From Rugalucina vietnamica (Eukaryota > Mollusca > Bivalvia > Lucinida > Lucinidae), in the NCBI GenBank assembly GCA_964017185.1, contig OZ024876.1, positions 14,137,726 through 14,201,725 of the forward strand: 64,000 nucleotides of DNA. Direction: 5' to 3'. Of the stretch, positions 11,176 to 48,500 are shown in pieces (within the stretch, counting starts at the first letter, position 1; each line of letters opens with the position of its first letter). The notes beneath the pieces were generated by a model. The model searched no databases. It saw nothing but the letters and a program-made list of their open reading frames with translations, and was not told the DNA's origin. The translations under genes were made by a program, and so were the position numbers.

Positions 11176-11857
11176 AACTGTTATGGTGAATGCGTAGGTT
11201 TGAATCCAACCAGGTAGCATTTATGCCGATTTTGGTATTTGAATAAACCCCTCGCATATTTCCTCAACTTTACCGACCATTATAATACATGGATTTCGCT
11301 TTCACTATTTTGCACAAAACTAATTATTGACTGAATATCAGCCATGATTAATATTCTTTCCGAGTAGACACACGCCACAGATTTGCCATCGTAAATATGA
11401 ATGGTCTACTTGTAATTGCTCAAATGCGAACTTTGGTTCAAAGTTTTGCTGAAAAAGCAAATTGTTAATATATGTATTTACATATAAACATACAATAAAC
11501 ATAAAATGATTAAATATAAGACAGCAAACATCAGCTGCCAATTAAACAGTAGTTTACTAGACATCCATGATAAAATCAGACATTGTGTCTAAATTTTAAT
11601 GCAATCATCATGATCATTGGCATCTATCCCTTTCACGTCTGAGTAAAAACATCATGATTCAAATATTTTACAGTGATCAAGCAATATGACATTATTATCA
11701 GTCGTATCTGAACCCTAGGTTAATCACATTGAAAGCACAATTTACACCTCTATTACCAAATATTCATTTTCTTACAAAACTGTAAGCCCGTTGGTCATTC
11801 AACATCGACATAATTAGCGTATATATAAAATATTATTCCAAACATTACACAAATATT

Positions 11858-12129
11858 AAAAGGTACAAGTAGGCAAAGATCAGGAAAATGCGCAATCAGA
11901 AAAAAGATTCCCACTCCAAAAACCGAGGTGGGGAAAAACCAAACTAACAATCAGGTACTTATACCATGAAAACATATCGTAAGACGAATGAGCAACTATT
12001 TTCCCAATAGGTGGCCACTCAGTTATCTAAACTTAACTAAAAGTATGAAAACATACATAAGGCACCAACAGCACAAAAATTTTAAACACCAAGACATAAA
12101 ACAAAAAGAACCACCACAGAAGTATCGCC
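11858..12129 (-). mobile_element. Retro-like family R, copy 1 (3' part)
   Basis: Family R is described on its inferred sense (minus) strand. All copies share the end ...TTGCCTACTTGTACCTTTT and differ in where the other end stops, as 5'-truncated retroelements do. This copy carries the 3' part, then is broken at 12129 by an inverted fragment (12130-12313), after which the same copy resumes. Confidence 0.7.
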
Positions 12130-19169: not shown

Positions 19170-19183
19170 TCTTTATCGACAAG
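19170..19183 (+). repeat. Left TIR of the ISL2EU-like element
   Basis: TCTTTATCGACAAG, a perfect 14-bp inverse of the right end. An inner block at about 19198-19217 (ATCATGTGATCTCCAGAAGG) is the second, imperfect part of the TIR. Confidence 0.85.
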
Positions 19184-19360
19184 AGAACCGTTATCAGATC
19201 ATGTGATCTCCAGAAGGGAAATAAATTGGTTTACCTGCCAGCAGCTGTTCTGGCTACACAGAGTTTATTTACAAATCTGAATTCCAGCCACATGTGTAAC
19301 CTTGTTTTACAGCAAAAACTTAATTAATGAAATAAATTTAGAATAATTAAAGATGTAAAA

Positions 19361-21194
19361 ATGGTCCATTACTGTTGTGTCCCTGAATGCAAGGCTTCTG
19401 GATTTGATGAGAACGTGTCATTCCATTCATTTCCAAAGGAAAACGTAGACCAAAAACTATTTAAGGTAAGACAAAATCATCTAGTTTGTTCGTGTTTCTC
19501 TATGTAGCCAAGTTGCATCAAAGTCTAATGTTTTTTTCTTAACTGAGATTTAAATAGTTTAACATTCGACAGTGCCAGAATTTTACTTTGTTTACAAGTA
19601 CATGATTGTAGTCATCAACACTACAAACAACAAGCATTTCAGGAATGACCAACAATAATTCTTTTTAGCACAAATCATTGACAAATAAAATATAAAGGTT
19701 TGTCATTTTTCTTTGCCCTATTAAATGAAAAAAAAAGATAAAACTAAATTGTGTTTACATGTATCTCATTGTCGTTCGCAAACCACTCTTTTACAGACAT
19801 GGAAGGCAAGAATAAGGAGGTCTGCAACATCAGCTACGAAAGACGACTTCAAAGTTACTGCTAATACAAAAGTTTGCTCAAAACACTTCTTGTTTGCTGA
19901 CTTTATAGAGTATGACTCAAAAAGAAGAAAACTAAAACAGGGTGCAGTGCCATCAGTATTTTCGTGGTCGAATCAGTCCAAGCGTAAGTCTCCCAAAAAG
20001 AGATACGACAGTGAAGCCACAGACACGGCATCGGAGTCAGAGGAGAATCCAAAGCAAAGTTTTGAGGAAGGGGTACAAGTGTGTATACCAATCCCATGCT
20101 CACATCGATTCTCAATGAATATTGTCTTGGCTTCGAATCCGAAGATGAAGCTTGTTCAGTTTTACACAGGATTTCCAAATTATGAGATATTTAAGGAAGT
20201 GTTGAATCTCATTGTTCCTGAGTGCGACAGATCCAGCATAGTTTACTGGGACAACAGACGCTCCCATACATATGTGAGTGGACCAGAATACTTCGACTCA
20301 GATGAGGATGACATTTTAGATATGAGTGATGATGAAGGTGATGATGCTGTGCCACCCTCCAGGACTCATAAACTGTCTGTAGAAGATGAGTTCTTACTAA
20401 CTATGATGAAATTAAGACTTGGCCTTTTTAATAAGGATTTGGCAGTCAGATTTGGAATTTCATTGTCAACTGTGTCTAAAATCTTCATGACCTGGATTAA
20501 TTTGATATACATAAAACTTGGCTCATTGAACATTTTCCCACACAGAGATATAATCATGAAGAACATGACTAAAGAATTTAAACAGCAGTACCCGAATGTC
20601 ATGCTTATTATAGACTGCACTGAGCTTCGCATTCAGATGCCCTCATCTTTGGTCAGGAAATCTCAAACTTATTCAGACTATAAATCAACAAATACATTTA
20701 AAGGATTGGTTGGTGTGGATAGTAAGGGAGGCATCATGTTTGTATCTCACCTGTATACAGGTAGTATCTCGGACAAGGAGATATGTCAGCGTAGTGGATT
20801 CTATGCGATGTTGAAAAGGAAGATTGAGAATGGTGAACTACAGCGGGGCGATGGAGTAATGGCAGACAAAGGCTTCAATATTCATAAGGAGCTCGAGGAA
20901 CATGGGCTGAAACTTAACATCCCTCCATTTTTAGGGAAGAGAAAGCGACTTTCTGCTGATGACGTTCTACAAACACGTTTAATAGCTCATCACAGAATAC
21001 AAGTAGAAAGAGCAATAGGAAAAGTGAAAAACTTTCATATTTTTGACACCAGATTTAGACTAAGATCAGCTGGGATTCTGAACCAGATATGGACAGATTG
21101 CTGTTTACTCGCAAACTTTCAGGATCCTTTGATAGTTAGGGCATCAGATGAATCATATATGGTAAAGTGCAAGATTTGCATACCAATTATATGA
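19361..21194 (+). CDS. THAP-HTH-DDE transposase (spliced)
   Basis: Exon 1 (19361-19465) encodes 35 residues. A GT-AG intron (19466-19796) joins in phase to exon 2 (19797-21194), giving about 500 aa. Residues 1-90 form a THAP zinc finger: MVHYCCVPEC start, FHSFP, W37, CSKHF (C62, H65) and GAVPSVF, so the C2CH ligands are C5, C10, C62, H65. Residues about 226-280 are the HTH that precedes DDE_Tnp_4 domains. The catalytic core shows IDCTE (D308), SDKEI (D361), ADKGF (D392) and QVERAIGK (E439); D392 to E439 is a 47-residue step, as in Harbinger-like DD47E enzymes. The protein should bind the TIRs through THAP and cut and join DNA in the nucleus. A donor GTAAAG at 21162 and a strong acceptor before 21298 suggest an alternative last exon ending SYMTTNM. 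No stop or frameshift interrupts it. Confidence 0.92.
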
Positions 21195-21523
21195 ACTTTC
21201 AAATTACTGTACGTCATCATAAACCAACAATTGATCTCCCTAATTAATTACTATGAGGACTACATTTATTAATTTGTTTTCTTTTTTTTTTTCTCAGACA
21301 ACAAACATGTAAGAACAAAAGGAATAATTATTACATGCAAATATTTGCCATAGATTTTGCAGCGTTGAAAATGTATGTAAAATTCAATACGTGCCTTCTA
21401 AGAAGGGCAGACACTGTTCACCTCAACAACTGGCCATAGAATTAACAATGATGTTCCGCACATTTGTATTTCAATATACATATAAGTCATAAGTTCAGAG
21501 ATGCTTATTCAGAGAACAGAATT

Positions 21524-22475
21524 CATTTAAGGATGTTCGCTGCTAACATTTGACATTTCGGAACTTCCGGTTTTTCTTTTCTTGAATATCTCGTAAACAG
21601 TTGCAGATATTTTCCTAATATTTTATATTTGGAGACATATTGATGATATGCATTGAATGAGCCATAAAAATTGTCAATCTAAGAAACTTCATTTTTTCAC
21701 CCCATTTTCTGCAACTTTTCAGAAAATTTTAGTTGTCAGTAAAATTTAGGGGGTAGGGTAGATTAAACTTGAATATTACACATCTTAAAATTAATTGCAC
21801 TAGTTCGATGTTTATTTCAGAAGCAGTATATATGAACATGGTCTTCTAAGTCAGTCTTCGTGTCTTTAGTGTGCTGGTTTAAAAATTTTAGGTGGTTTTA
21901 TGAAATGGGCTTTTAGAAACAAAACAGCCGAAGAAAGGCTGAAAATGGCGATTTTCAAGTTGTTGGTTCTCTCTTATATGCTCACTACCCTATATATTTC
22001 TTTCTTTTATTCGAACAATATTACCAAGTTCTATGTTATGTGAAAATACAAGAAAAAGTTTGAATCAACAAATATGAATTTGGCACATTTCAAAATATTT
22101 TCCAACTTTTCAAGTATGGGGGTAGGGTTGAAAAAGGAATCGTAAAATTTTGTCATCCACTTCAAGTTGCAAATTTTTCTATGCTTTTGGTCCAAAATAG
22201 TCTGCGTTACGTAAATATGATGACTTTTGAAAGCATTCTAGGCGTATGTTTGTTCCAGACAGGTATGTTTCAAAGAATTAAAAATTAAATTATTTTTACC
22301 AAATTTAAAACATAGTGCTCAGAGGTCTCATTCAGAGGGCTGTAGCTTGAAAAAATGCACACTACCCTATATTTATTTTGTTTTCAAATGTCTTGTGTTG
22401 TATTTTAGAATCAAAAAAGAGTGATTAGAAAAAAAGTTTGAATACTTTTTCATTGGCAGCGAACATCCTTAAATG
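21524..22475. mobile_element. MITE-like insert with CATTTAAGGATGTTCGCTGC ends
   Basis: The 20-bp sequence at 21524-21543 recurs exactly inverted at 22456-22475, enclosing about 950 bp with no usable frame. It lies between the two convergent genes of the transposon, in what would be their 3' flanks, so it does not break either gene. The inside repeats short blocks such as CACTACCCTATAT (about 21984 and 22360). Confidence 0.75.
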
Positions 22476-22562
22476 CAAGTATGCCATTAAATGTATGCAT
22501 GTAATCACTTTTGTTGTTTTATTTACATGTAGATCCCTTTACTACTCATTCTTTTGTCAGAA

Positions 22563-24072
22563 CTATTGTAGGTCCTGCTGAACAGATGTACTAGCTACTG
22601 GTTCTGATAATACGTCAACTGATTTGTCCTTCAATATTAAATGTTGAACTGCATGATTGAAATAAAATTCTGTCAGTTTGGGAAACATTTCTCTAACCCA
22701 AAAATCTTTTGAGAATGGTACTCTTTCTACAAATATTCCTTTGTTAGTGAATACAACAAAATCACACCAGGAAATTCCGGCAATAGCCATCTGGCCTTGG
22801 ATCTGATAATGATATTCATGATTCCGTTTTAGTCTTGGTCGGCCAGCTATGAGTTCTAGACAGAAATCGGCATTGCCAACAGCTTCCGCTGGAAGGACAT
22901 TTCGATATTTAAAAGGACACTTAATCTCAAGCAGTCCAAACATGTCAGATGCATTTTTGTCAACGACCTTACCATCAGGAGAAGCACCGAAGTACGGAAA
23001 CGCTGGATTGACAACCAATCCACTGTGATATACAGTTATGTCATGATTATGTTTTTTCATTTTCTTTACATAGACTTTTCTAGCGAAGCTTTCTTTTTCA
23101 ATACCATGTGCTACTGATCTTACACCACGCAAGTCTTTACTAATAAACATGTTCTTTAAGAATGCAGTTGATGGCACACTTTTGCGTTTTAATATTTCGC
23201 CAAATTTAGAAGAAGTTACTCTCTTTTCTCGACTTTTAAACCACAATGGATTGTCACTTTGGGTCACAGTGAGTGATTCTAGCTCATTGCATCTCTGCAT
23301 ATCTAATGTCAAGCTTTGAATGAAATTCGTGATATCTTTTGAGAAAACATCTTCTGTTATCCTGATAGTTGGTTCTCCTATTTTAGTAGGCAGATCTGGA
23401 AACAAGATGATGTTGTCACCATTTTGGTTCATGATAGGCAAAGGTAGGTATGCCTCGAACTGATACGACATTGTGTGGTAATCCTGTAGTTGGTAACTAA
23501 GTGGGGAATTATCATGTACATCACCAAATAGACTTTCCTTAATATTATTACTTTTGTCCTCCAACATATACGAAAACGGAATATTTCTGCTGCGGGCTTT
23601 TAAGACATCGGCGACTCTGTCCATTTTCTCTTTGGTAATCATACCTCTCGCCTTTTTAGCTCTCGCATCATACAGTCGGCAAAGGACAGGGTCTCTCTTT
23701 CTTTGCTGGCGGTCTGTAGTTGCTTTAGCAAAGGTCAATTTCATTAAAGGCTGTGGTGTAATTTTTTCTCCTCTTGGTTTATGCCACTTTTGTGGTCTAC
23801 TTGTACAGGACTTCTCGGCAGGAATTTCCTTTATGCGTGTTAAGGACCAATGTTGAATCTGGTACAAAAATGCTACCACGTGATTGCAGGATTCACCTTC
23901 ACTGAAATAAACAAATAAATAAATATTTAAATAAACAGGCACAGATGCACTGAAATAAATAAATAAATAAATAAATAGAAAAATAAACTTGACCGGATAA
24001 TTATTAATTAAACCGTGTCTTTCTGCACAAAACTATTAGTGAACAAAACACCAAAACACTACAACTTGGGAT

Positions 24073-24128
<56 letters not shown>

Positions 24129-24436
24129 CCTGCTGTACAGGAGCATGTTGCAGTTTCAACATTTCTGTTCAATGTACTGATGTTTACAGTTACATCATGG
24201 GGTGTCTCTCGTTTAAGATAACTTCTCCAGCACTTGGCTTTCAAGTTGAAAGTCTTGTTCTGATCATCTTCTGCTGCATATGCATCATGTATAAATTCCT
24301 CCACGTAAAATTCATAACCCCGATCAGAAGCTCTGTCTGTACCATGCTTTGTGATATAATCAGTTATATTAATAGAAGAAAATCTAGGAAGCTTTGTCAG
24401 TTTTTTTGTCCAAATGGTGCCACTTTTACTTTGCAT
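22563..24436 (-). CDS. SWIM zinc finger + YqaJ-type exonuclease (spliced)
   Basis: On the minus strand, exon 1 (24436-24129) ends CAGCAGG|GTAAGT and exon 2 (23901-22563) follows a TTTATTTCAG acceptor, with the join in phase; total about 548 aa. The splice completes a SWIM zinc finger: CSC at 98-100 and CNH at 108-110 (CxC-x7-CxH), split by the intron. The second half is a YqaJ/lambda-exonuclease-type PD-(D/E)XK nuclease: GASPDG with D412, LEIKCPFK with E428 and K430, then YQIQGQMAI. Such nucleases degrade DNA ends; in ISL2EU elements they accompany the transposase, and a role in end processing is only inferred. The gene converges with the transposase gene. Its intron contains a (GA)n tract. 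All catalytic motifs are intact, so activity is plausible. Confidence 0.9.
24077..24123. repeat. (GA)n microsatellite
   Basis: About 23 GA units within the single intron of the YqaJ gene, ending right at its splice donor (ACTTAC on the plus strand at 24123-24128). Length variation here could affect splicing. Confidence 0.95.
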
Positions 24437-24657
24437 GTTTACATGTTTGAATGACTATCTACTACTAAACATTTTATGCAGTGCCTGATTAAGTCATTAG
24501 CATCAATATTACATACTAGCAGGTCAGATGGTGATATGAGATAAGATTTTAATGACTTGCAAACTACTGAAGGAAAATGTGTATTGGAATCGGGTTAATC
24601 TCGGTTCAACAGCTGCCTGTGTTTATATTTGCTTGCCTTCTACAGGTCACGTGACTG

Positions 24658-24671
24658 CTTGTCGATAAAGA
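24658..24671 (-). repeat. Right TIR of the ISL2EU-like element
   Basis: CTTGTCGATAAAGA, matching the left end exactly. The inner block (about 24638-24657) contains the palindrome TCACGTGA, which corresponds to TCATGTGA on the left. Confidence 0.85.
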
Positions 24672-30665: not shown

Positions 30666-31130
30666 CTCAAAACCCAGAGCATATTTACTAAACTTTACTG
30701 ACCATGACCATTATCATATACGGAGTTCGTTTTCACTATCTTGCATGAAATTTATTATTGATTAAAATTATTTCCGTGTAGACAAACGTCATGTATTTGT
30801 AATTGTCCAATTAACAATTATTTTTGCTGAAAAAGCAAATTGTTGTTTATACAAAAAATATTAATATACATTTCTCGTACATTTGATTAAATATAAGACA
30901 GCGAATATCAGCTGCCAATTTAACAGTAGCTTATTAGACATCCATGATAAAATCAGACATTGCGTCTAAATTTTAAAGCAATCATTGGCATCTATCCCTT
31001 TCACGTCTATGTAAAAACATCATGATTCAAATATGTTTACAGTGATCCCGCAATATGACATTATCAGTCGTATCTGAACCCAAGGTCAATCACATAGAAA
31101 GCAAAATTTTCATTCTATTAATTGGGAATG

Positions 31131-33660: not shown

Positions 33661-36600
33661 CACTTGCCATATAATAAAAGTATCTTTTAAATTCAGGATT
33701 AAGTTTACTGCTAGGGCTCATCTGTGGGCTTATTCACAGTGGCTTTTAATTTTACACCATCACGACAAATAATGCAGGGGCTTAATGGCTGTCCTAAAGT
33801 GTGAGACCATTACAAACATGCGTAGTATCAATATAAGAAAATAACCAATCTACAGACAGCGTACCTATTATGAAGTTTTGGAACAAAACGGAAAATAAAA
33901 CGCACAGCATGTACCCTTCAGCCTTAATACATGAATTTGTCTACAATGTGATTAGTTCTTTATTACCCGGCTTAAGTATTATAGCCGGGAAATAATCGAA
34001 AACCATCTTTAAAGCGTTTGAATGAGAAATGATCTCATTAACTCTGATCTTGACATATCAGGCATGTATGAACAAATTTCTCTTTCGTGTACGATCATTT
34101 TCCAAATGCAATAATAGCATTATGTAAAAAACAAACTTATACCCCTTCATTTAAGTACGTTGTTTTTATTAATTGCTATTTTCATCATGGTGTCGAAGAC
34201 AGAGGTTTTGATCTGCTGTCAATTCGTGTTTATTCCTATTATTGTACATGTCCGGTTTTAACAATGTCACACAATATTATTTAAATCAAGCACAACAAAA
34301 TCGCAGTACTTACCAATGAAAATAAACATAATGGAAATGATCCTTGTTGGTAAAATTACACTGGTATTCTAAATAACATTTATATCGTCAAAAGACAAAC
34401 AGATATCACTGATAACGTCGGCTCTTTATATACAGTGTTTTATTACAATATAAAGAATCTCATATTGTCCTAGCCTCGTGGCTTCCACTCAGCTAGTTGC
34501 TGCGAATCAATATAGAGGTATCTGAGAGGCAAATCGCCGCCGTCTGTACTCTTATAACCTGTATTTGAATGAATTCGATTGCATTGACTTAAAATATTAT
34601 TATATAAGATTTATTCATACAATACTCAACGGCATTTGATTACTCCATGGTTTCATAGCGAGCATTTAAATAATTTCTTTAGATTACTATTGATTCAACG
34701 ACTGGGAATGAACATTTACCTTATAAGGTCAACAGATATATTGTGTAATTAAAATAAATACAGCAGTAGGATATTGTTGCAAACATGGTTCTATGTTTGA
34801 ATTGTAACGTTTTTTTTTTGTACACACAGTAATGTGGAAATTGACTGCAAACTACATATTTGACAACAATCGAATAAATATTTAAATTGCTGAAGCAATA
34901 TAGCGAAAATGAAATGCGAATAATCAATTATTCAATTCTTAAGCAAATATGTTTTTCGCAGAATGAAGTTGCTTAAAATTTCCAGTTTGTACAAATCATG
35001 CTTCGTTTATATCAGAATTTCATATAAGCGTACTTTTTTGATGATGATATTGAAAGCCACCTGTATTGTTAGTAATGACTACTTTCTGCTTTTGAAAATC
35101 GTTTTACATTCACCTTCAAACTACTATAACAAAGCAAATAAAGCTAAATAAAAAACCTATTTTAGGATATCATAAATTTACAACATACTCGGTTGGCGAA
35201 ACAACCACATCTGTATCTATATTAATGTATCTGGCTCCATATACTTGACTGATCGGAGCAGTTTAAAGTATTAATCATAATAGATTTGTCGCAAGAGAGT
35301 CTGTCTTTGGTGAATTAAAAACACCGATAAGAAGCTATTATAGCAAATGAATTTTGAGAACTGTTGAGTTATTTTGATATAATGTGCACCTGCCTTTATT
35401 CTAAACATTCAGAATTCTACATGACTTTAAGCTTTTTACTAAAGGCTATCAATCCGTCTGATAGAAGACTGGGACAGGTTATAATATGACGAGGTCAAAT
35501 AACCTTTTAGACCGATGTTGCTGGAAGAAAAATATAGCTAATTCATCCTATTTTATATAGTTTAGTTCACGCTTCTTCGTTTTATTATTCAATGAAATTT
35601 TTATTTGCTTAAGAATTATAGATGTTCTGAAATGGAGTTAAGATGCATATGTTGGTTGGTTCAAAACCAACCAGGTAGCATTTTTGCCGATTTGGTATTT
35701 GAATAAACCTGGAACATATATACTAAACTTAACTGGGCATAACCATTATTATATACGGAATTCGTTTCACTATCTTAAACAAAATTCATTATTGATTTAT
35801 ATCAATCATGATTGAATTTTTTTCCTTGTAGACACACGTCACGTACTTGTTATTGTTTAATTGCCATGTTCGGTTCACAATATTGCCGAAAAAGCAAATA
35901 GTTATATAAAAAGATATAAGCATATATTTCTCGTACATTTGATTAAATCTAAGACAGTGTATATCAGCTGTCAATTAAACAGTAGTTTACTAGACATCCA
36001 TGATAAAATCAGACATTGTGTCTAAATTTTAATGCAATCATTGGCATCTATCCCTATCACGTCTGTGTAAAACCATCATGATTCAAATATTTTATAGTGA
36101 TCCCACAATATGACATCACTATCAGTCGTATCTGAACCCAAGGTTAATCACATAGAAAGCAAATCTGCAAAGTGTACAACTCTGTTATTTGAACATGGAA
36201 ACCAAATATTCATTTTTGTACAAAACGGTAACACGTTGGCCATTCAACAGAATTAGCTTATATAATTATAGAATAGTATCCCTAAACCATACAATGCACA
36301 AATGTAACTCTCAAGCCTCTTAGATCAAATTAAAATACAACATATATGTGTTTGTGTTTTTTTTTTATTTATTTGGTGTTCAAAGTTTTATATGACTTGA
36401 CCAGTGACAGTAAATGAGCCCAACATAATTAAAACATATATGAAATGCGACCCACTGATCCAGTAAAAGGATTAATGACATGAAAATATTAAAATGTTAT
36501 CACATTATTTCTTGCATTAGCTCCAGGTTTTAAAGGTAAAATACATCTCGTTGCATAGGATAGAAAGAAAAACATATCTTTAACAACAACTTAAGTTGTG

Positions 36601-45569: not shown

Positions 45570-48500
45570 AGTTATTCTAGCACATGTTAGAAACAGTGGA
45601 ATTATGTATGCCAACATGGTATCGCACCATACCAGTACAATTAAACAGAGAATTCTTAAGAACTTTAATGAAGGGTTTTCTCATGACGTGCCCACACGCG
45701 AATGTCATAATGTGAAAACCACACTTTCTGACAAAAAGAATTGACGGGTGTAGGACACACGTACAAATAAATTAAGACTGTGAAAATTTTAAGCAATCTG
45801 GAAACATTTCTTTCAAAATAAACTTAAAATTGTAAATCCTGATAGTGCCATTCGGTTGTTGTTGTTGCGTAGAGCCCCGCCGCTGACTGTTCTGCGAACT
45901 GGATAACCAATAATGATTGAGCGAATAAAAGTTGTCACTAATTTCTAAAAGTATTTGTGTCTCCGGATAGCTCATTCGATCAGTAGCGTCGTAAACTTCT
46001 GATTATCTACACATGGATCGAATCCCATTGGCGACGCCAGTAAAATGTCGATAATTGATAAACCTATCAAATCGTTCAATCCTGCATCAGCATATTTCAA
46101 TGGTGTGATTGTCACCTGCCAGGCACGATGGTTTTACAGGGCATTTTCCGACCAAACACCGAAAACTGCTGTGGCTCCCCACGACCACCACCACCACCAC
46201 TAGGCAGTCGGTGTCTAAGAAGCAGAATTGCTCAGGCAGCCGCATAGATTTGCGTGATTCGTGAAACAATTAAAAACATACCATGGCCTTAGCAGACATG
46301 TGATTGATGCACAAGATTAAAATAAGATCTGTGTACGATTTTTAAATTGAAAAACTTCAGATACCTTCAGAAAAACTTATGAAACATGCTACGAAAGCTA
46401 TCAAACACCTTCGATCGTGTAAGGTAGTAGAAGTTTAGGGTTTACTCCAATTAAGTTGGACAGCCTTGAGATACCCCCCAGAAATCGATTAAAGTTTCTC
46501 GTACACCGTATATCGTATCTCAGACTAAGTTGGAAATGTCTAATATGACGAGGTCCAATAACCTTTTAGCCCGATGTTGCTGTAAGAAAAATAGCTTATT
46601 CATCCTATTTGATTTAGTTTAGTTTACGACTCTTCGTTTTATTTTTTCAATGCATTTTTATTTGCGTAAGAATTATAAATGTACACTCTTCTCAATTCTG
46701 AGATGGAGTTAAGGTTCATGAGTTGGTTGGTTTGATACCAACTAGGTAGCCACTAGGTGGTATTTGAATAAACCCAGAGCGTATCAACTATACTTTACTG
46801 GCCATGACCATTATTACACACGGAATTTGTTTTCACTATCTTGCACAAAATTAATTATTGATTGAATAATAACCATGATTAAAATTCTTTCCGAGAAGAC
46901 ACACGTCACAGATTTGCCATTGTAAATTGTTCAAATGCCAACTTCGGTTCAAACTTTTGATGAAAAAGCAAATTGCTGTATATGAAAAAAAATATTTCTA
47001 GTATATTTAATTAAATATAAGACAGCGAATATCAGCTGCCAATTAAACAGTAGTTTACTAGACATACATGATAAAATCAGACATTGTGTCTAAATTTTAA
47101 TGCAATCATCATGATCATTGGCATCTATCCCTTTCACGTCTGTGTAAAAAGTCGATATCATGATCCAAATATTGTTTTATAGTGATGCCTCAATTTGGTA
47201 TTGTATCTGAGCTCAAGGTAAAGCACATGAATAGTGCAATTAACATATGGGCCACAACGTGAGAAAATGTACTTTCAGACAATTTTTAAGTATTAGAAAA
47301 ACAAGGTTACGCTGAATGTATGATGTTTCTAGAGTCTGTTACACTTTATTTGACCAGATTATTTCAGTTATTTTGTGAGTTATGACCAATTTACCATATG
47401 GACCGTACAGACGTCATTGTCCTGAAAAATGACGTCAAAGTTGCGTAATGCATTTCTGCATGTTAGTATAGCTTACAAAACACGATGCATTTGCCTAAAA
47501 CTGTTTAAGCACTGGTCAGAACCTATTGCTAAGATAGAAGCATACCATCCTTACAGGCAATCTGTCGTGATTATTTTGTCTATTGTTATGATGATGCGGT
47601 TGCCATGGTTGCCGTTTAACAATAGATATAGGAAAATTATGTGTATTATGGGCTAAAACAAGGGCAGATAACACAAAATATTGACAATACATATTTTTTT
47701 TTTAAATTCATTCATTTGGTAGCCCAGTGTTCAAAGATTACAAATACAGTGTTATTTCTATAAAACGTTTACGTATATTACACAATTTTTCCACTTTTTG
47801 CTGCTTTCTGCTAGTAATGTCAGAATGTCCGAAGATACATTTTGTCGCGTTGAGGTTCATATGTATTAAATGGCAATTGAAACTCAATATTGTTTTCGTA
47901 CAAAGCTGAAGCCCATTGGCCATTTTTCATCGACAAAATTAGCGTCTAATAAACTATTACGATGTGAATGTAAAACGTTAAACAGTCGCTTAAATGAAAA
48001 CAAAACATTAAAATAGTTTTTCCTTAAATTTATAGGGACGTCAAAGTTTGTTATGAATGGACCAATAGCTGTTAATCAGTTCCAAACAATTGAGAACAAT
48101 CAAAAAGCGGCCTTACCGTCGAAAAATAGTATTTGTGACATTTAAAAATATCCAGTTTCTTATACACTATCCCCCCTTTTCCGTTTTAATGTTCGCTGCG
48201 TACGCTTGATATAGACAAATCAACATCTCTTGACGAACAATATACATTGTAGGACAAATATTACAAAAATCTAAATCGCTTTTACAATCCCATCTCGTAA
48301 TTATCAGTATAACAGCCTAAATGTGTTCATTATATCATATGATCATTCTACTCATTTTTCATTGCGCCTCACAAATTGGTCTGCCAAAACATATAATTAT
48401 CTCTCCCAGCGGAACATAATAGTAAAGTTCACCATATTACCAAGTGTTAGACTTGCAAATTGCCCCTTTTACTTTTATAATTTTTATACAATAACTCGGA

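Follow-up and report, generated by a model that had tools for sequence, protein, structure and literature searches.

What use a lambda-type exonuclease is to an animal DNA transposon is a question raised by a 64,000-nucleotide stretch of the genome of the lucinid bivalve Rugalucina vietnamica (contig OZ024876.1, positions 14,137,726 to 14,201,725; hereafter, the window), in which a two-gene mobile element occupies positions 19170..24671. The element, whose copies were searched for across the host genome (1.09 Gb, 47 contigs), is a new family in the known ISL2EU group of animal DNA transposons; its identity and anatomy as an ISL2EU-type two-gene element are almost certain, and the best overall explanation, which we hold with good confidence, is a young cut-and-paste transposon of this group in which the exonuclease is a working part and no passenger. 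Three features make it of interest: the abnormal junction at which the window copy sits, the SWIM-YqaJ architecture with convergent gene pairing, and the evidence for constraint on both genes.

The element comprises a THAP-HTH-DDE_Tnp_4 transposase gene on the plus strand and a SWIM-YqaJ exonuclease gene on the minus strand, arranged tail to tail (convergently). As a first-pass annotation of the window had predicted, both genes splice in phase through GT...AG introns with no internal stops (open lengths of 500 codons for the transposase and 548 for the exonuclease), and the exact 14-bp inverted ends that it described were found at 19170-19183 and 24658-24671. The parts of the element are as follows:

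19170..24671, no strand assigned: one ISL2EU-type DNA transposon; about 4.55 kb are its own, and a nested insertion makes up the rest
19170..19183, plus strand: inner 14 bp of the left terminal inverted repeat, which in the family begins 2 nt further out (AC, missing here)
19361..19465, plus strand: first transposase exon, in which the THAP domain begins
19797..21194, plus strand: transposase exon 2, remaining THAP, HTH_Tnp_4 and DDE_Tnp_4 (D308, D392, E439)
21527..22472 including TTAA, no strand assigned: nested 938-bp non-coding repeat between the genes, with a TTAA duplication and inverted ends
22563..23901, minus strand: exonuclease exon 2, second SWIM half, linker and YqaJ/lambda-exonuclease domain (D412, E428, K430)
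24129..24436, minus strand: exonuclease exon 1, holding the first half of the SWIM CxC...CxH motif
24658..24671, minus strand: inner 14 bp of the right terminal inverted repeat, lacking the outer GT and the AT duplication seen in the family

Pfam profiles matched the transposase with THAP (2.1e-15), HTH_Tnp_4 (7.9e-19) and DDE_Tnp_4 (3.4e-40), and the exonuclease with YqaJ (3.9e-17) and Viral_alk_exo (9.4e-13), with the two proposed catalytic triads where the annotation had placed them: D308/D392/E439 inside the DDE_Tnp_4 domain and D412/E428/K430 in the YqaJ domain.

Searching the genome with the left and right halves of the element (all 15 candidates scored for each half) recovered 11 near-full copies including the window copy, the halves of the other 10 being 96-100% identical to it, together with lesser copies: a truncated copy on contig C9 and a deleted one on C14, as well as fragments (C1 and C16) and a diverged stretch (C11). 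(The copy alignment omits the partial, deleted or diverged loci L031/L039, L032, L040, L041 and L042.) All 11 copies preserve both splice sites of the transposase intron (GT donor, AG acceptor); the exonuclease intron keeps its donor in all 11 and its acceptor in 10, the remaining copy (L024) reading GA in the alignment. Within that intron, near the splice donor, lies a run of GA repeats (24078-24123) whose length is unequal between the window copy and one of its relatives, L021.

The copies define the family's ends. The family inverted repeat is ACTCTTTATCGACAAG, 2 nt longer than that of the window copy, with the AT duplication lying outside it, such that the ends of other copies read ATAC-TCTTT...AAAGA-GTAT; the outer AC is present at 10 of the 11 other readable left ends (the exception, CC, is in L021) and the outer GT at all 13 other readable right ends. 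Because the empty sites of four copies (L021, L022, L027 and L029) hold a single AT, gapless in the best matches, the family duplicates a 2-bp AT target; the first three of these copies lie in repeats whose other units are clean empty sites, and the repeat around L029 is more diverged. The alternative that the outer AC/GT reflects target preference and not element sequence was rejected, since nothing but the AT stands at the empty sites. Of the ten other near-full copies, at least four (the same four) sit in repeat arrays, a siting that perhaps reflects a landing preference or tolerance.

Domains and target duplication together place the family, an assignment made against the published description of ISL2EU. 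Published ISL2EU elements are marked by a THAP/HTH/DDE transposase and a YqaJ second open reading frame (ORF), and have an AT target duplication and an average length of about 4.84 kb (PMC4482050), compared with about 4.6 kb here. The domain composition and the AT duplication at four other copies' empty sites (not at the window copy) bear out the annotation's comparison with ISL2EU-type transposase-exonuclease pairs, and the shared characters tie the family to ISL2EU within the PHIS (PIF/Harbinger-ISL2EU-Spy) superfamily. Han et al. (PMC4482050) described what the extra ORFs of such elements do as unknown, and the SWIM motif that stands ahead of YqaJ here goes unnamed in the portions of that ISL2EU description consulted. 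The PIF/Harbinger elements likewise have two genes and a DDE_Tnp_4 plus HTH_Tnp_4 transposase, but they differ in their TWA duplication and Myb/SANT second protein, as against AT and YqaJ here; no Myb match was found among the Pfam hits of the element's proteins.

The second gene has the marks of a lambda-type exonuclease, namely PD-(D/E)xK residues in the right fold, by profile, by sequence (a match to LHK-Exo at 6e-8) and by predicted structure, the fold of the model matching LHK-Exo (4e-11) and lambda exonuclease (1.7e-8). The model was built from 9 aligned paralogues and reached a predicted local distance difference test score (pLDDT) of 68-97 in the block of residues 191-420, the first 190 residues not being confident; the exonuclease exon modelled without an alignment had a mean pLDDT of only 30.7. 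Lambda exonuclease and LHK-Exo (PDB 1avq and 3syy) thus share the predicted fold and the catalytic D/E/K with the element's protein; they are free phage or bacterial enzymes, whereas this one is a transposon protein with a SWIM motif. Conservation among relatives is concordant: in an alignment of the window protein with nine others that share 24-32% identity with it, the active-site D, E, K and Q and the C and H of the second SWIM half are invariant (10/10). The relatives came from 12 YqaJ loci without stops, hand-picked from the upper part of the YqaJ match list, each read in its longest frame with a [DE]xK pattern (12/12 had one). CxH or the full CxC...CxH stands ahead of YqaJ in 9 of the 12 loci, with 3 lacking it within the frame read; L058, L061 and L063, short frames that start past the SWIM region and in which the D and ExK motifs are legible, were left out of the alignment. 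A literature search limited to titles and the beginnings of abstracts, with subscription papers and Repbase reports outside its scope, returned nothing tying SWIM to YqaJ or to an exonuclease with transposition.

Both genes are under purifying selection, the exonuclease being constrained no less than the transposase. Across the 11 copies (majority codons as reference, transitions weighted 2:1, frame-broken copies kept column by column and shared descent uncorrected), nonsynonymous/synonymous differences numbered 43/36 in the exonuclease and 50/38 in the transposase; with opportunities in the ratio 3.18, omega is 0.38 and 0.41, respectively. Differences found in at least two copies gave lower values (exonuclease 7/13, omega 0.17; transposase 10/11, omega 0.29), and singletons gave higher ones (36/23, omega 0.49; and 40/27, omega 0.47).

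The pairing of the two genes recurs across the genome. A profile search found 109 YqaJ matches. Within 10 kb, a DDE_Tnp_4 match lies convergently to 76 of them, divergently to 1 (at 6.9 kb) and on the same strand as 0, with 32 having none; tail-to-tail arrangement thus accounts for 76 of 77 pairs. These counts include every match, such that copies of one family count repeatedly and matches within 10 kb are not necessarily parts of one element; for DDE_Tnp_4, 150 of 415 candidates were scored. The 76 convergent cases include the window locus and every one of the 12 fetched YqaJ loci (for L064 the distance is 9.65 kb), and, as search controls, 14 named control genomes yielded YqaJ matches in 2 and DDE_Tnp_4 matches in 1. 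The pairing had initially been called rare, a description that finds no support in these numbers or in the same gene pair shared by published ISL2EU elements (PMC4482050). The tail-to-tail bias and the selection result argue that the nuclease belongs to the transposition cycle.

Other transposons have exonucleases as well. Kolobok elements, which duplicate TTAA, are DNA transposons with an exonuclease of their own in some lineages. These exonucleases are lambda-type in KolobokE and DnaQ-type in KolobokD (PMC9587614), the KolobokE nuclease lying downstream of the transposase domain where the present one is a separate convergent gene. Nine of the 32 unpaired YqaJ matches lie in frames of more than 1000 aa, with a scored DDE_Tnp_4 within 10 kb in 0 of 9, and seem to be other kinds of element. 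One (L071, G000:C11:46772500-46779500) is an exonuclease fused to another transposase type: a single frame (1667 aa in the fetched stretch, 2009 aa in the genome search) that holds a TNP-like RNase H, a GTP-binding insertion (P-element type), zinc knuckles and YqaJ. Another (L070, G000:C14:31817300-31823300) has YqaJ and, after it, a weakly matching TNP-like RNase H (0.0037) in a frame no shorter than 1198 aa (1489 aa in the genome search). That different transposon groups have repeatedly taken up exonucleases is consistent with such enzymes being generally useful in the transposition cycle.

The seating of the window copy is odd and may show how the ends of the element are handled. It has no AT duplication, the outermost AC/GT are gone, and 28 bp of target are lost relative to the closest sister segment. 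The copy had been described as intact, which holds for its two open frames and not for its borders, where 2 nt are gone from each end and no target duplication is present, nor for its interior, which carries the nested insertion. The sister empty sites that had been noted do exist in the window, as four segments; they reveal a target loss (28 bp in the closest) instead of a duplication. Two of them were matched across the junction by a search with the joined flanks and two were placed by alignment:

11650..11702, plus strand: closest sister empty site, search match; 11660-11687 are the 28 bp that the target lacks next to the transposon, at 19170
31018..31092, plus strand: sister segment without the insertion, placed by alignment
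36074..36148, plus strand: sister segment without the insertion, search match across the junction
47156..47230, plus strand: more diverged sister segment without the insertion, placed by alignment

All four retain the block that is missing at the window copy, the closest reading CATCATGATT-CAAATATTTTACAGTGATCAAGCAATAT-GACATTATT where the window locus reads CATCATGATT-element-GACATTATT. Flank-like segments recur on the same strand (11313-11865, 30872-31027, 35779-36303 and 46844-47164), and the window therefore holds a local array of duplicated segments. Judged from the sequence at its borders, the balance tips towards the window copy being a recent insertion whose ends, each short by 2 nt, were joined with the 28-bp target loss as a non-canonical end-joining product: one event, in which an excised element with shortened ends was joined into a broken site, would account for all of the borders.

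Several observations weigh against the reading of the element as an ISL2EU-group transposon with a working SWIM-YqaJ exonuclease and an end-joined window copy. The profile check proposed by the first-pass annotation, which recovered every other named domain, left SWIM at 0.14 in the window protein, below the Pfam cut-off; the CxC...CxH motif is present, and the SWIM profile matches 3 of the 10 aligned members (best, 1.4e-4). The choice of loci and frames partly favours the invariance of E and K, not directly that of D, Q or the SWIM residues, and 32 of the 109 YqaJ matches lack a scored DDE_Tnp_4 partner within 10 kb, a count taken with 150 of 415 candidates scored. The family's terminal inverted repeat starts with AC, where that of ISL2EU usually starts with GG (a tendency, not a strict rule), and its flanks favour T-AT-A (in our tally of 10 copies, T 7 and A 3 before the AT; A 6, G 2 and T 2 after it) in contrast to the ISL2EU target A-AT-T, or AATT (PMC4482050). 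Finally, the window copy could have entered canonically and lost its outermost bases later, in two deletions.

As to what the exonuclease does, we infer that it resects the donor break or processes intermediates, and the first of these we propose tentatively, at somewhat less than an even chance. In such a cycle, the THAP zinc finger and the HTH would bind the element ends and the DDE domain would cut and rejoin at AT sites, the transposase thereby excising and inserting the element; the SWIM finger would bring a 5'-to-3' double-strand exonuclease to the break left behind, and resection would steer repair to copying from a sister copy, such that the element would be regained at the donor site and its copy number would rise. 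That the element needs an active nuclease at all is probable. A main rival, though an unlikely one, is that the second protein is a DNA-binding helper with dispensable nuclease activity, comparable to the Myb-like second protein that Harbinger, a relative, uses for nuclear import and end binding (PMC9179366). The SWIM motif ahead of the nuclease would suit such a helper, but the nuclease fold is matched by the predicted model, and a pure scaffold would not need an active-site D, E, K and Q held invariant in 10 of 10 proteins at 24-32% identity. It also seems improbable that the exonuclease, instead of resecting donor breaks, acts on by-products of transposition or on the ends of the element itself by trimming or degrading them. 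Lambda-type exonucleases are processive and would remove far more than 2 nt, and the other readable outer ends are full length, one with a base substitution; on the other side, the sole copy with both ends non-canonical is 2 nt short at each, and the DnaQ-type exonuclease of KolobokD has been proposed to degrade intermediates (PMC9587614). Least probable by far is an endogenous viral gene or chance-captured passenger. The Viral_alk_exo match and the counting of YqaJ domains in a bivalve genome among endogenous viral elements (PMC7826175) would speak for it; it was judged unlikely given purifying selection and the 76 convergent transposase pairs, and the published ISL2EU characters (PMC4482050) stand against it as well. 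The YqaJ domains counted as viral in that genome may partly be transposon genes.

The borders of the window copy can also be explained by canonical entry followed by two separate deletions, one per border, an account that we regard as improbable. The target has several AT sites, one of them just left of GACATT, and insertion there minus GTAT would give the observed right border; this account nonetheless needs both deletions to stop at the same depth, 2 nt into the element, in a copy that only 3 substitutions, one 1-bp indel and changes in simple-repeat length set apart from L021, its closest relative, over about 4.55 kb, and it seems less simple than a single end-joining event. Within the end-joining explanation, a more specific and rather speculative version would make the window copy the fossil of an excised ISL2EU molecule that was cut or trimmed 2 nt inside its termini and end-joined at a break with the 28-bp loss. 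Such a fossil would mark where the non-transferred strand is really cut, and would reveal that the exonuclease, by directing breaks into resection, is normally in competition with end joining of this kind. The family offers a workable case, with few near-identical copies, several of them with both frames open, AT targets with empty sites, and one natural abnormal insertion.

Both frames are open in 4 of the 11 near-full copies (the window copy, L021, L022 and L026), and the three others have canonical ends except for a single deviant base in one of their left ends. Of the three substitutions that separate the window copy from L021, two (at 21158 and 22577) destroy the stop codons of both genes: the family stop of the transposase (codon 489) is gone, making the protein 12 residues longer, and so is that of the exonuclease (codon 545), adding 4 residues. 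The chance of two such hits under a uniform model is about 5e-6, a figure for a pattern noticed after the fact and for which assembly error is possible.

The 5.5-kb unit is itself a nest of two transposons. The other near-full copies measure 4.55-4.69 kb, their chief difference from the window copy being a 946-bp stretch, and the nested element is absent from all ten (0/10), which led us to reject the notion of a 5.5-kb family sharing the terminal repeats. The longest frame of the nested element is 74 codons, stop to stop, and among 15 fetched relatives TTAA is present at the left in 15 and on both sides in 14. At exactly the nested-element site, L021 (G000:C13:12589662-12596244) carries TTAATTAA where the other nine copies have a single TTAA, as if the nested element had entered a common parent and then been cut out, leaving both duplications. 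Elements of the piggyBac type usually excise without trace, and an excision that left both duplications would be of interest on that account.

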